Translations under genes and position numbers: made by a program
Part shown: piece after piece, positions 59,383 through 63,251 of the stretch
Layout: every line of letters starts with the position of its first letter
Position numbering within the stretch: position 1 is the stretch's first letter
Notes under the pieces: generated by a model
Seen by the model: the letters and a program-made list of their open reading frames with translations, nothing else
What the model was told of the DNA's origin: nothing
Database searches by the model: none
From: Oceanimonas sp. GK1
GTDB lineage: Bacteria > Pseudomonadota > Gammaproteobacteria > Enterobacterales > Aeromonadaceae
DNA: 64,000 nt
Direction: 5' to 3'
Assembly (NCBI RefSeq): GCF_000243075.1
Contig: NC_016745.1
Coordinates: 177,501 to 241,500, forward strand

Positions 59383-60906
59383 TTGCCGGACAACAGCGTG
59401 CCTGCCGTTCACTCCCTGCTTGCCACTGCCATGGGCATCGACACTCACCAGGAACCGGTGGTGTTTCTGCGTGCCGACAGTGAAGTGTGCCGCGCCGAGG
59501 GGTTTATTGCCAACACCCGTATTCAGGTTACCGTCGGCGAGCACAGTCTGATCGCCACCCTCAACGTGGTCACCAACGAGGTACTGCCGGCCCGGCATAT
59601 CGGATTTTCCCGCATCGCCTGGGAGCGCCTGGCCCTGCTCGGCGATGAGGAAGTTTCCGTACGCCACGCCCCGGTGCTGCACTCCATGAGCGCAGTGCGC
59701 AAAAAGATGTACGGCAACACCCTGTCGAAACGGGAAATGAACGACATCATTGCCGACATCAGCCAGCACCGCTATTCCGACATGCAGATCGCCGCCTTTC
59801 TGACCGCCTGTGTCGAACGGCTCGATACCGATGAGGTCATCGCCCTGACCCAGTCCATGGTGGACAGCGGCAAACGCCTGAGCTGGCCGACGCGGCTACA
59901 ACTGGTCGACAAACACTGCATTGGCGGCCTGCCCGGCAACCGCACCACCCCCATAGTGGTGGCCATTGCCAGCGCCGCCGGTCTTATCATGGCCAAGACC
60001 TCGTCCCGAGCCATTACCTCCCCTGCCGGCACCGCCGATACCATGGAAGTGCTCACCCGGGTACACCTGGACCTGGCAGAAATCCAGGCCACGGTGCGCA
60101 AGGTCAATGCCTGCCTGGTGTGGGGCGGTGCCGTCAATCTGAGCCCGGCGGACGACATGCTCATTCGCATTGAGCGGGCGCTGGATATCGACGGCACCGG
60201 CCAGATGGTGGCCTCGGTGCTGTCGAAAAAAATCGCCGCCGGCTCCACCCACGTCCTGATCGATATTCCGGTGGGCCCCACCGCCAAGGTGCGCAGCCAA
60301 CCCGACGCCGAGGCCATGAGCCGGCTGTTTGAAACCGTGGGTCAGGCCCTGCGGCTGAAGGTACGCTGTCTGATCACCGACGGCAGCGAGGCCATCGGCT
60401 ACGGCCTTGGTCCCGCCCAGGAGGCCAGAGATGTGCTGGCGGTGCTGCAGAACCAGCCCGAGGCCCCCGCCGATCTGCGCGAGCGAGCCCTGCTGCTGGC
60501 CGCCCACCTGCTCAATATGGCGGGCAAGGGTGAGCTGGATGATACCTCCCGGCAAGCCCGGGAGTTGCTGGAATCGGGCCAGGCCTGGCACCAGTTCCGG
60601 CGCATTTGCGAGGCCCAGGGCGGACTCAAGCCCATACCCGAGGCGGCCTGTTCCCTGCAGCAGGGCGCCCGCCACAGCGGCACCCTGCTGGCCATGGACA
60701 ACCGCCGCCTGTCCCGGCTGGCCAAACTGGCCGGCGCCCCCAATAGCCCTGCCGCCGGACTTCGGCTGCACGCCAAGCTGGGCCAGGCGCTGGCCATGGG
60801 GCAGCCGCTGTTTACCCTCTATGCCGACAGCCAGGGCGAGCTGGACTACGCCGCCGACTACTATGAGCACAATCACGACCTGTTCATGATTGGAGAGGCA
60901 CCATGA
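59383..60906 (+). CDS. Nucleoside/nucleotide phosphorylase of the archaeal AMP-phosphorylase type
   Basis: This family phosphorolyses nucleosides or, in archaea, nucleoside monophosphates to base plus ribose-1,5-bisphosphate. The frame gives 507 residues from a TTG; GTG at 59398 or ATG at 59431 are alternative starts, none with a clear ribosome binding site. An N-terminal double-psi domain (about residues 15-85) precedes the phosphorylase core. The segment KTSSRAITSPAGTADTMEVL (about residues 206-225) is nearly the same as in archaeal AMP phosphorylases, and KHCIGGLPGNRTTPIVV carries the phosphate site. Its stop overlaps the next ATG (ATGA). Bacterial members are annotated as putative thymidine phosphorylases; true substrates are inference. 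Confidence 0.88.
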   Translation: MPDNSVPAVHSLLATAMGIDTHQEPVVFLRADSEVCRAEGFIANTRIQVTVGEHSLIATLNVVTNEVLPARHIGFSRIAWERLALLGDEEVSVRHAPVLHSMSAVRKKMYGNTLSKREMNDIIADISQHRYSDMQIAAFLTACVERLDTDEVIALTQSMVDSGKRLSWPTRLQLVDKHCIGGLPGNRTTPIVVAIASAAGLIMAKTSSRAITSPAGTADTMEVLTRVHLDLAEIQATVRKVNACLVWGGAVNLSPADDMLIRIERALDIDGTGQMVASVLSKKIAAGSTHVLIDIPVGPTAKVRSQPDAEAMSRLFETVGQALRLKVRCLITDGSEAIGYGLGPAQEARDVLAVLQNQPEAPADLRERALLLAAHLLNMAGKGELDDTSRQARELLESGQAWHQFRRICEAQGGLKPIPEAACSLQQGARHSGTLLAMDNRRLSRLAKLAGAPNSPAAGLRLHAKLGQALAMGQPLFTLYADSQGELDYAADYYEHNHDLFMIGEAP

Positions 60907-61838
60907 CCCCGCTGCTGTTTGCCCTTCCCGACAGCCATTCCCTGCTCGCGCCCCTGTGCCGGGCCCTGCCCGCCAAGGAAGGCCGGCTTGAGTATCATCA
61001 TTTTCCCGATGGCGAAAGTTACCTGCGCATCCTCTCGGCCATGGAGCCGGGGCAACGCGTGATGGTGCTGGCGGACTTATCCCGCCCCGACGAACGCACG
61101 CTGCCCCTGTGTTTTTTGTGCGACACCCTGAAGGAGCTGGGCGCCGGCTGGGTGGGGCTGATTGCGCCTTATCTCTGCTACATGCGCCAGGACACCCGCT
61201 TTCACCCCGGGGAAGCAGTCACTTCCCGCAGTTTTGCCCGGTTGATATCCCAACGCTTCGACTGGCTGCTAACGGTGGACCCGCACCTGCACCGCTATCA
61301 TGCCCTCAGCGACCTCTACTCCATTCCTGCCATGGCGGTGCATGCTACGCCCCTGCTGGCCGACTGGCTCAAGGCGCGCCGCGAGCCCCTGCTGCTGGTG
61401 GGGCCGGACGCCGAAAGCGAACAATGGGTCTCGGCATTGGCCCAGGCCAGCGGCCACCCGTTTGTGGTGGGCCGCAAGCAGCGCCGAGGCGACCGCGATG
61501 TGCAGGTACAATTGCCGGATCTGTCCGCTTACCGCCGGCACACCGCCATCATGGTGGACGACGTGATCTCCAGCGGCCGCACCATGCTGCGCTGTGCCGA
61601 GGCCCTGACCGAGGCCGGTCTCAAGCGCATCGAGTGCGCCGCCATTCACGGCCTCTTTGCCGATCGCATCGAAGATCAGTTGCAACAAGCCGGCGTGCGA
61701 AGGCTCGTCACCACCAACTCGGTGCCCCACCCGTCCAACGGGCTGGATCTCACCCCCCTGCTGCTGCCCCCGGCGCGGCGGCTGGCCGGCGGCGAGCCCC
61801 CCTCTCCCCCAGACAACCAGACAGGAGCAGGCAGATGA
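60903..61838 (+). CDS. PRPP synthetase-like protein (archaeal/class III type)
   Basis: Ribose-phosphate diphosphokinases make PRPP from ribose 5-phosphate and ATP. The 311-residue frame starts MTPLLFALPDSHSLLAPLCR. The ATP segment PYLCYMRQDTRFHPGEAVTS (about residues 95-114) corresponds to the ARQD region, and TVDPHLHRYHAL carries the metal His. The PRPP loop is VDDVISSGRTM (about 218-228), where housekeeping Prs has a DTAGT-type end. The flexible loop KQRRGDRDVQV keeps the basic residues. It overlaps the genes on both sides by four bases. It is likely a second, specialised PRPP enzyme; housekeeping prs is not in the window. Confidence 0.88.
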   Translation: MTPLLFALPDSHSLLAPLCRALPAKEGRLEYHHFPDGESYLRILSAMEPGQRVMVLADLSRPDERTLPLCFLCDTLKELGAGWVGLIAPYLCYMRQDTRFHPGEAVTSRSFARLISQRFDWLLTVDPHLHRYHALSDLYSIPAMAVHATPLLADWLKARREPLLLVGPDAESEQWVSALAQASGHPFVVGRKQRRGDRDVQVQLPDLSAYRRHTAIMVDDVISSGRTMLRCAEALTEAGLKRIECAAIHGLFADRIEDQLQQAGVRRLVTTNSVPHPSNGLDLTPLLLPPARRLAGGEPPSPPDNQTGAGR

Positions 61839-63190
61839 AAATTACCTTTCTCGGTGCCACCCAGACGGTGACCGGTTCCAAATTTCTAGTCAGCCACAAC
61901 CACCGGCAGATCCTGGTGGACTGCGGCCTTTATCAGGGCTACAAGTGGCTGCGCCAGCGCAACTGGCAACCGCTGCCCCTGGAGCTCGACCAGCTAGACG
62001 CCATCGTGCTGACCCACGCCCACCTGGATCATTCCGGCTATATTCCGGTGCTGTACAAACAGGGCTACCGGGGCCCGGTATATTGCCATCCGGCTACACG
62101 GGATCTGTGCGAGATTTTGCTGTCGGACAGCGGCCACCTGCAGGAGGAAGACGCCGTTTATCTGGCCCGGCACCAGCTCAGCAAACATGAAAAGCCCGAG
62201 CCCCTGTACGACCGCAGAACCGCCGAAAACAGTATGAAGCTGTTTCGGCCACTGGAGTTTGACCAACCCAAAGCGGTGGGTGACATGCGCTTCTGGCTAC
62301 AACCGGCCGGGCACATTCTCGGGGCCGGCAGCCTGATCCTGGAGTGCGACGGCAAAAAAGTGGGCTTTTCCGGTGATGTGGGCCGGCCCAACGATGTGTT
62401 TATGCGCCCGCCCCGGCCGCTGCCGGCGCTGGATCTGCTGCTGCTGGAGTCGACCTATGGCGATCGCCGCCACGAGCCGGGGGATCCCCTCGAACAGCTG
62501 GCCACCCTGGTCAACGACACCGTCGCCGCCGGCGGCGTCATGCTGATCCCGAGCTTTGCGGTGGGCCGGGCCCAGACCCTGCAACACCTGCTGGTACGGC
62601 TGATGGATGAACAGCGCATTCCCAAACTCAAGGTGTTTCTCGACAGCCCCATGGCCATTGAAGTCAGCGAAATTTACGAGCGTTTCGTGGATCAGCATCG
62701 GCTGAGCCGGGCCGACTGCCACCGTATGGGCCAGGTAATCACCCTGGTGCGCAGCGTGGAAGACTCCAAAGCACTGGCCGACGAAGTCTATCCCCATATC
62801 ATTATCGCCGGCAGCGGCATGGTTACCGGCGGGCGCATATTGCACCACATGAAGCGGCTGCTGGGGGATCACCGCACCACCCTGCTGCTGACCGGTCACC
62901 AGGCCGGGGGCACCCGGGGGGCCAAGCTGCTGCAGGGCTGCGACAAGGTGCGCATTCACGGCGACTGGTTCGACAACCGGGCGCGCATAGAGCGGCTGCA
63001 CGGCCTGTCGGGCCATGCGGATTATGCGGAGCTGGGGCAATGGCTGGCCGCCTCGGCGCTGGAAAAAGGTACGGCCATTGAGCTTATCCACGGCGAGCCG
63101 GAAGCGCTGGAAGCCATGCGCGACTACCTGCGCCAGACCACGGAGTTTGACGTCAATATCGGGGAGTACGAGCGTATTCTGACACTGTAA
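61835..63190 (+). CDS. Metallo-beta-lactamase beta-CASP ribonuclease-like protein
   Basis: Beta-CASP proteins (CPSF73/RNase J relatives) cut or trim RNA. I chose the ATG giving MKITFLGATQTVTGSKFLVS (451 residues), with AGGAG upstream; the frame is open far upstream through the PRPP gene. Zinc motifs are complete: HAHLDHSG (about 59-66), PAGHILGAGS (about 155-164) and FSGDVGRP. Beta-CASP motifs follow: A in FLDSPMAI (about 268), B in LLTGHQAGGTRG (about 349-360) and C in GLSGHADY (about 389-396). It resembles the COG1236 Ysh1-like group. Its start overlaps the PRPP-gene stop. Confidence 0.9.
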   Translation: MKITFLGATQTVTGSKFLVSHNHRQILVDCGLYQGYKWLRQRNWQPLPLELDQLDAIVLTHAHLDHSGYIPVLYKQGYRGPVYCHPATRDLCEILLSDSGHLQEEDAVYLARHQLSKHEKPEPLYDRRTAENSMKLFRPLEFDQPKAVGDMRFWLQPAGHILGAGSLILECDGKKVGFSGDVGRPNDVFMRPPRPLPALDLLLLESTYGDRRHEPGDPLEQLATLVNDTVAAGGVMLIPSFAVGRAQTLQHLLVRLMDEQRIPKLKVFLDSPMAIEVSEIYERFVDQHRLSRADCHRMGQVITLVRSVEDSKALADEVYPHIIIAGSGMVTGGRILHHMKRLLGDHRTTLLLTGHQAGGTRGAKLLQGCDKVRIHGDWFDNRARIERLHGLSGHADYAELGQWLAASALEKGTAIELIHGEPEALEAMRDYLRQTTEFDVNIGEYERILTL

Positions 63191-63251
63191 CAAGAAGGAC
63201 CGAGACGGCGGTTGCCGCCTCGGCCAAATGGGAGAAAAAACGGAAAGCGAG

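Follow-up and report, generated by a model that had tools for sequence, protein, structure and literature searches.

In Bradyrhizobium diazoefficiens, three adjacent genes, bll3117, bll3116 and bll3115, are all raised in microoxia at both the transcript and the protein level (PMC6515984), and bll3117 and bll3115 are listed as FixK2-dependent, with a box at -74 and a predicted operon bll3117-bll3116-bll3115 (PMC9104804). The same FixK2-dependent list contains a phosphoketolase-acetate kinase pair, bll2518-bll2517 (PMC9104804), while the available portions of PMC6515984 and PMC9104804 do not discuss the function of the three-gene operon. In archaea, the nucleoside 5'-monophosphate (NMP) phosphorylase of Thermococcus kodakarensis is described as cleaving AMP, CMP and UMP, and bacteria as routing nucleoside ribose via the pentose phosphate pathway (available portion of PMC9700705). 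Routes through ribose 1,5-bisphosphate (R15P) have been considered a feature of archaea, or of those bacteria in which an R15P isomerase and RuBisCO are present too. Here we describe an operon of three overlapping genes in Oceanimonas sp. GK1, found in a 64,000-nucleotide stretch of contig NC_016745.1 (positions 177,501 to 241,500; the window). Its genes encode an NMP-phosphorylase-like protein of the so-called thymidine phosphorylase family (gene 1, TP), a protein resembling phosphoribosyl pyrophosphate (PRPP) synthase (gene 2, PRS-like) and a metallo-beta-lactamase-fold protein (gene 3, MBL). In window coordinates, the operon consists of:

59383..60906, + strand: gene 1, NMP-phosphorylase-like, 507 aa, over the cut-offs of NF003338 and TIGR02645
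60903..61838, + strand: gene 2, PRPP-synthase-like, subfamily NF005537, 311 aa, over the NF005537 cut-off
61835..63190, + strand: gene 3, beta-CASP metallo-beta-lactamase-fold ribonuclease-like, 451 aa, by its Pfam domains
60903..60906, + strand: ATGA overlap of genes 1 and 2, 4 nt (gene 2 start 60903, gene 1 stop 60906)
61835..61838, + strand: ATGA overlap of genes 2 and 3, 4 nt (gene 3 start 61835, gene 2 stop 61838)

The explanation that we tentatively favour, at a probability of roughly 0.45, is that these genes form a stress or low-oxygen module for dismantling ribonucleotides. The beta-CASP protein would cut RNA to 5'-NMPs, as its family suggests, and the phosphorylase would convert NMP and inorganic phosphate (Pi) into free base and R15P in the manner of the archaeal NMP phosphorylase, a step to which the conservation of its presumed AMP site points. 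The PRS-like protein would then move the anomeric phosphate of R15P onto a nucleotide, most simply as R15P + AMP -> ribose 5-phosphate (R5P) + ADP; genetic linkage and altered phosphate loops with intact catalytic residues are suggestive of this step. Finally, R5P would enter the pentose phosphate pathway or, in some relatives, would be taken by a clustered divergent phosphoketolase and acetate kinase to acetyl phosphate, acetate and ATP. Of these elements, the third step is less secure than the first two and than the catabolic direction.

The assignment of gene 1 is based on curated models and on active-site residues. Gene 1 passes NF003338 (649 bits, cut-off 434), which also matches the control archaea M. 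jannaschii, H. volcanii and M. acetivorans, and TIGR02645 (581.6 bits, cut-off 434.6); both models span an N-terminal stretch that is missing from the canonical phosphorylase models. It scores far below the canonical DeoA model TIGR02643 (135.2 bits, cut-off 570.7), and likewise far below the pyrimidine-nucleoside phosphorylase model TIGR02644. The closest solved chain is 4ga5, which we take to be the T. kodakarensis enzyme, and the AMP-binding and active-site positions of that enzyme in UniProt/HAMAP are, we assume, 168, 194-199, 203, 256, 264 and 288. In an alignment of 155 sequences, the gene 1 product is identical to the T. kodakarensis protein at all 11 of these positions, each of which is kept in 153 to 155 of the 155 TP sequences, and the pyrimidine-nucleoside phosphorylase of B. 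subtilis differs at 7 of the 11. The alignment covers 155 of the 158 loci in the two locus sets described below, proteins with stops or undetermined residues (X) having been dropped, and corresponds to 138 sequences after clustering at 95%. Given that the AMP-site positions are kept, NMP phosphorylase activity is expected of gene 1, and thymidine seems an unlikely natural substrate. The original prediction, made from the letters of the window, had called gene 1 AMP-phosphorylase-like, and the conserved site is supportive of that view.

Gene 2 passes both the PRPP synthase family model TIGR01251 (170.2 bits, cut-off 113) and the subfamily model NF005537 (372.7 bits, cut-off 322), and its closest solved chain is 1u9y, with 29% identity over 258 aligned residues. 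As the genome encodes a separate, ordinary PrsA (417 bits for TIGR01251; 27% identical to gene 2), gene 2 represents a second paralogue. Four solved PRPP synthases and this PrsA served as comparators for a PRS-like set of intact proteins (no stops or X) that score above 100 bits and whose genes lie no more than about 6 kb from TP. Of the 158 loci, 147 have a hit over 100 bits and 139 an intact protein; together with the gene 2 product these make 140, of which 138 remained after a length filter and 127 after clustering at 95%.

The catalytic residues of PRPP synthases, namely a His, the Lys-x-Arg and Asp-Asp pairs and the FPDxE and RQD motifs, are all present in the gene 2 product, and F34, P35, D36, E38, R95, Q96, D97, H128, K192, R194 and D220 occur in 138/138 PRS-like proteins (D219 in 137). 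Since the expected catalytic residues are invariant or nearly so, the subfamily looks catalytically active. Its loops are nevertheless altered relative to the comparators. Residue 171 is Glu (PDxE) in 138/138 PRS-like proteins, or 127/127 after clustering, versus Gly (PDxG) in 5/5 comparators, and is followed by S (135/138), Q (137/138) and W (138/138). Position 226, an Arg in gene 2, is Gly in none of the 138 (R, H, Q or K in 118), versus Gly in all five comparators, while LHR directly follows the catalytic His128 in 138/138; neither this LHR nor the QW after the PDxE loop is seen in any of the five comparators. The eight PRS-like proteins whose genomes have no TP match keep the PDxE motif too. 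Residues 171 and 226 lie in what we take to be the "pyrophosphate loop" and the "ribose-phosphate loop", names for which a check of a human PRPS2 paper yielded nothing. In PRPP synthases these loops bind diphosphate and ribose 5-phosphate, and a change of donor or product is thus likely for gene 2, whose protein, to judge from these residues, is no ordinary PRPP synthase. In the PRPP synthase mechanism it is the beta phosphorus of the donor that is attacked, and with one phosphate fewer the simplest chemistry would be R5P + ADP = R15P + AMP, which in reverse would turn AMP into ADP. In its most specific form, which we regard as doubtful, the third step would be carried out by an R15P:AMP phosphotransferase that arose from a PRPP synthase and whose Glu171 would block the terminal-phosphate site, so that only one phosphate is moved. 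Together with TP this would give 2 AMP + Pi -> adenine + R5P + ADP, and with phosphoketolase and acetate kinase it would amount to an RNA-fermenting, low-oxygen energy pathway.

The pairing of TP with the PRS-like gene was followed in a class sample of 369 gammaproteobacterial genomes (TP at E <= 1e-100, PRS-like at E <= 1e-60). TP occurs in 76 genomes and PRS-like in 80, of which 75 exceed the curated cut-off; both are found in 72, TP only in 4, PRS-like only in 8 and neither in 285, counts that are uncorrected for ancestry. Two of the four TP-only genomes (G058 and G123 in our numbering) end at a contig edge, and so do two of the eight PRS-like-only loci (L194 and L198), where a TP could be missing. 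At a further one of these eight loci, in a genome without a TP match, a short open reading frame resembling the N-terminal part of TP lies upstream of the PRS-like gene (L197, 4435-4791) and is apparently a TP remnant. Gene order was read from a gamma set of 78 loci, taken from the TP genomes of the class sample, and from a named set consisting of the best 80 of at least 569 relatives, which is not an even sample; three loci are shared by the two sets (L069/L112, L050/L130 and L071/L158). In 72/78 gamma loci TP is followed immediately, on the same strand, by a PRS-like gene; three loci end at a contig edge and three have no such gene in that place, one of these last (L070) having it upstream. 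The corresponding figures for the best 80 named loci are 69, one and ten, and five of those ten carry a PRS-like gene further off. The linkage of TP and PRS-like is far beyond chance. Pairwise divergences of the two proteins correlate as well (Mantel r 0.817, n=134, species divergence not removed), and much of this match may reflect shared genome ancestry. The best 80 named loci span Alpha-, Beta- and Gammaproteobacteria, Bacteroidota and one metagenome-assembled genome (MAG) of Verrucomicrobia; the pairing is also seen in megabase contigs, and a TP match at E <= 1e-50 occurs in 116 plasmid records, including a Criblamydia plasmid. The original prediction had proposed a survey of conservation as a check, and in this survey the gene set reaches far past close relatives.

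If R15P is made, the PRS-like gene is the one conserved candidate for its use that we found, no search having been aimed at phosphatases or phosphopentomutase; it is a candidate because the R15P isomerase, RuBisCO and PhnN are missing from this genome or below cut-off. The genome has no R15P isomerase match at E <= 1e-10 and no RuBisCO match at E <= 1e-5, which extends to the whole genome the earlier remark that neither is encoded in the window. Across the TP genomes, an R15P isomerase over the TIGR00511 cut-off is found in 0/76, and the weaker matches in 50/76 are at the level expected of its relative, methylthioribose-1-phosphate isomerase. PhnN converts R15P to PRPP, and the standard PRPP synthase uses ribose 5-phosphate and not R15P. 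PhnN scores 60.1 bits in this genome (cut-off 156) and exceeds the cut-off in 6/76 TP genomes, with one near miss. RuBisCO is commoner in TP-bearing than in TP-lacking genomes (50/76 versus 123/293; odds ratio 2.7, p 0.0003, uncorrected for ancestry). We rejected this association as a sign of the archaeal route, given the 26 TP genomes that lack RuBisCO and the R15P isomerase count of 0/76.

Gene 3 carries the MBL, Beta-Casp and RMMBL domains over cut-off (PF10996, PF07521, PF12706 and PF00753) and keeps the metal motif of the MBL fold as THAHLDH (HxHxDH), in agreement with its earlier identification as a beta-CASP enzyme. The closest solved chain is 2dkf, that of TTHA0252, and the protein falls below two curated equivalogs, aCPSF1 (259.9 bits, cut-off 580.2) and type VII Cas14 (353.6 bits, cut-off 800); RNA cutting is the activity we infer from its family. 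An MBL gene adjoins the module on the same strand in 16/78 gamma loci, 11 upstream and 5 downstream, and in 40 of the best 80 named loci, 28 upstream and 12 downstream. Its position requires 26 parsimony changes on the TP tree versus 61 with shuffled labels; MBL has been gained and lost repeatedly, with its position mostly inherited. TP and MBL divergences are likewise correlated (Mantel r 0.783, n=64). Two apparent MBL-TP fusions were rejected: that of L061 (954 aa) has undetermined residues at the junction and elsewhere, and in that of L070 (1063 aa) the stretch ahead of TP is another frame and not an MBL protein.

The neighbours of the module bear on the direction of the proposed pathway. 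Among the best 80 named loci, the neighbour clusters include a P-type ATPase group in 33 (identified by inspection and after annotated copies), a phosphoketolase-like protein in 17 and acetate kinase in 11. The phosphoketolase-like representative (L172) reaches at best 139.8 bits against curated cut-offs of 777-1518, with a clear Pfam XFP match. With acetate kinase abbreviated to ACK and phosphoketolase to XFP, one-strand clusters run MBL-TP-ACK-XFP-PRS in L147 and L148, ACK-XFP-TP-PRS in L131 and L152, with the MBL gene further off on the other strand, and PRS-XFP-MBL-TP-ACK in L070; the XFP matches in L169 and L171 share just 25% identity with the queries and perhaps represent another kind. 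In the class sample, phosphoketolase occurs in 35/76 TP-bearing versus 60/293 TP-lacking genomes (p 1.5e-5, uncorrected), a link that is suggestive only, and of nine genomes with a match to the divergent phosphoketolase six have TP and three do not. As separate observations, members of this divergent family lie inside TP/PRS clusters with acetate kinase at L147 8612-10840, L152 3701-5965 and L070 7898-10240, and one genome (G367) holds two copies of the module (L070 and L074), each with its own phosphoketolase-like gene.

With regard to regulation, 77 of 79 upstream regions were scanned for FNR-type boxes against a Markov-shuffled control, two regions shorter than 150 bases having been dropped. 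At up to two mismatches, 13 regions match versus 9.6 expected, close to the shuffled distribution. Perfect boxes occur in L088 and L098, about 76 and 80 bases ahead of the aligned TP start, with 0.08 regions expected per 77; a few relatives may thus be FNR-controlled. Low-oxygen (FNR/Anr) control was rejected for this genome, since the region upstream of the operon is without a box. Across the whole window, FNR-like 14-mers with up to two mismatches number 27 versus 12.7 in shuffles, none of them upstream of the operon.

Several observations weigh against a ribonucleotide-dismantling module. Gene 1 scores below the AMP_phos equivalog TIGR03327 (469 bits, cut-off 535), as do nine further bacterial TPs (467-518 bits), so that 10/10 bacterial TPs scanned fall just outside the curated archaeal equivalog, and no enzyme test of a bacterial member of this phosphorylase clade turned up in the searches of the open-licence literature. 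The MBL gene is adjacent in a minority of gamma loci (16/78). Same-strand phosphoketolase is present in only 4/78 gamma and 15 of the best 80 named loci, and same-strand acetate kinase in only 2/78 and 11, respectively; a genome-wide search found no phosphoketolase in Oceanimonas sp. GK1 itself. Two TP genomes, G146 and G216, have room beside TP yet no PRS-like gene, and at five PRS-like loci (L191, L192, L193, L195 and L196) the expected stretch upstream is available and contains no TP. To our knowledge, no R15P-using PRS homologue is known, and transfer of the anomeric phosphate to AMP is uphill by rough estimate. An ordinary phosphatase or phosphopentomutase, at which no search was aimed, could also dispose of R15P. 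Finally, there is no FNR-type box upstream of the operon in the window, and at up to one mismatch just 3/77 regions of the scan match, versus about one expected.

The main rival to breakdown is the salvage direction, in which the PRS-like protein would make R15P from R5P and ADP, or PRPP, and the phosphorylase would join a base to it to give NMP and Pi. The same linkage and residue data fit such a scheme, phosphorylases are reversible with synthesis often favoured, and T. kodakarensis is said to be capable of NMP synthesis through R15P (available portion of PMC9700705). We nevertheless consider it unlikely, for the clusters with phosphoketolase and acetate kinase indicate breakdown, as does the FixK2-linked expression that the Bradyrhizobium operon shares with the phosphoketolase-acetate kinase pair in the available portion of PMC9104804, and salvage would have no need of an RNase partner. 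A return of ribose as PRPP, with gene 2 as an ordinary PRPP synthase and R15P or its product as the source, is a weaker rival and distinctly improbable. This was the route of the original prediction, whose gene order, overlaps, phosphorylase-like gene 1 and beta-CASP gene 3 are supported and whose PRPP return, as it was put, is not. Gene 2 does pass TIGR01251 and keeps the catalytic residues, but Glu171 and a residue other than Gly at 226 in 138/138 PRS-like proteins, versus Gly in 5/5 comparators, speak against the ordinary reaction; a housekeeping PrsA is already present, and PhnN is below cut-off in 70/76 TP genomes, including this one.

The curated models name the family of gene 1 thymidine phosphorylase, as do most of the 40 plasmid records listed. 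No canonical DeoA is present in the genome, where the only other family match scores 30 bits (an E. coli control does match), and a substitute could therefore be needed. Both points would suit ordinary nucleoside salvage by a thymidine or pyrimidine-nucleoside phosphorylase. However, the retained AMP-site positions, 7/11 of which differ in the pyrimidine-nucleoside enzyme, and scores far under the TIGR02643 and TIGR02644 cut-offs leave this reading little probability. Just as improbable, in our estimate, is the view that the genes are passengers of mobile stress or metal-tolerance islands without a single pathway, the MBL gene in particular being unrelated. It draws on the 116 TP plasmid records, some with TP beside copper or heavy-metal ATPase, LemA/TPM or ppk2 genes, and on the adjacency of MBL in only 16/78 gamma loci with a largely inherited position. 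Against it stand the TP-PRS pairing across Pseudomonadota, Bacteroidota and the Verrucomicrobia MAG and in megabase contigs, the matched TP/PRS-like divergence, and the location of MBL on the upstream side in some groups and on the downstream side in others. Among the annotated plasmid copies, that of Methylophaga has a copper ATPase beside the module, and those of Phenylobacterium and Acidovorax have LemA/TPM proteins and a heavy-metal ATPase. On the Acidovorax sp. T1 plasmid (L201, 875-18269) a long same-strand run around the module, with ppk2, a metal ATPase, LemA/TPM, a trypsin-like peptidase and a type II glyceraldehyde-3-phosphate dehydrogenase, resembles a transferable stress island. 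A Legionella anisa plasmid (L202, 78-9280) has an alternate F1F0 ATPase gene run directly after TP and PRS-like. In addition, a 121-aa protein is encoded upstream of TP, often directly, in 12 of the best 80 named loci (L135, 4522-4887, and relatives); the one member checked has no Pfam or NCBIfam match.

At the level of the operon itself, three same-strand open reading frames with ATGA junctions are present as first described. The same 4-nt overlap is found in 18/71 gamma TP-PRS junctions (script-predicted starts, L070 left out). The start of gene 1 is ambiguous (TTG 59383, as in the original prediction, GTG 59398 or ATG 59431), and GTG 59398 would give an N-terminal length near that of one relative. 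The promoter scan returned no sigma-70-like promoter, with 0.9 expected by chance. One further feature lies beyond gene 3:

63198..63225, - strand: hairpin with a stem of 12 bp, separating the operon from the convergent gene, weak (terminator scan)

Its T-rich tail is on the minus strand, and the hairpin would thus serve the convergent gene; the call is weak because the terminator-like sites number 3 versus 3.9 expected in shuffles. The G+C content is 64.3% for the operon versus 60.7% for the window. The closest named relative among the matches listed is Oceanimonas marisflavi, with the same gene order and identities of 88% (gene 1), 84% (gene 2) and 90% (gene 3). A TP match at E <= 1e-100 is absent from all three class-sample genomes of the same taxonomic order (G139, G252 and G348), so that the operon is patchy around the Oceanimonas lineage.

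The operon as a regulated gene set, the archaeal pathway and all the families involved are already known. The original prediction knew of no described bacterial pathway with this set; as far as the open-licence literature was searched, that holds for function, whereas the gene set as an operon has already been published for Bradyrhizobium (available portions of PMC6515984 and PMC9104804). New within the same literature would be the view that bacterial proteins of this kind, filed under "thymidine phosphorylase family", act as NMP phosphorylases and have an altered-loop PRS-like protein as partner, as their residues suggest; the link to a divergent phosphoketolase and acetate kinase is new as well. 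TP carrying the archaeal AMP site occurs commonly in Pseudomonadota and Bacteroidota, with at least 569 relatives, and its usual neighbour is a PRS homologue whose phosphate loops are changed. If the proposal is true, hundreds of annotations are wrong and R15P gains a further bacterial fate, and an energy gain from RNA under low oxygen or stress becomes testable with two purified proteins.

Compared with the NMP phosphorylase and pentose bisphosphate pathway of T. kodakarensis, the Oceanimonas operon shares the phosphorylase family and 11/11 presumed AMP-site positions. It differs in that its genome is without an R15P isomerase or RuBisCO match, in that gene 1 is below the AMP_phos cut-off, and in that the bacterial TP is paired with a PRS-like and sometimes an RNase-like gene. 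Gene 2 shares 29% identity and the catalytic residues with 1u9y, which we take to be a class III (archaeal-type) PRPP synthase, but the glycines of the pyrophosphate and ribose-phosphate loops are replaced in it by Glu and Arg, respectively, and LHR and QW are present as well. With TTHA0252, a beta-CASP ribonuclease, gene 3 shares the MBL and beta-CASP domains and HxHxDH, whereas it has a short insertion after about position 103 and sits in an operon with nucleotide genes. The R15P phosphokinase PhnN belongs to a different family, and would share the metabolite R15P with the PRS-like protein. In bll3117-bll3116-bll3115 of B. diazoefficiens, a FixK2 box is listed at -74 (available portion of PMC9104804), whereas none was found upstream in the Oceanimonas window; the three products are the same (available portion of PMC6515984), in the same order and within one predicted operon (PMC9104804).

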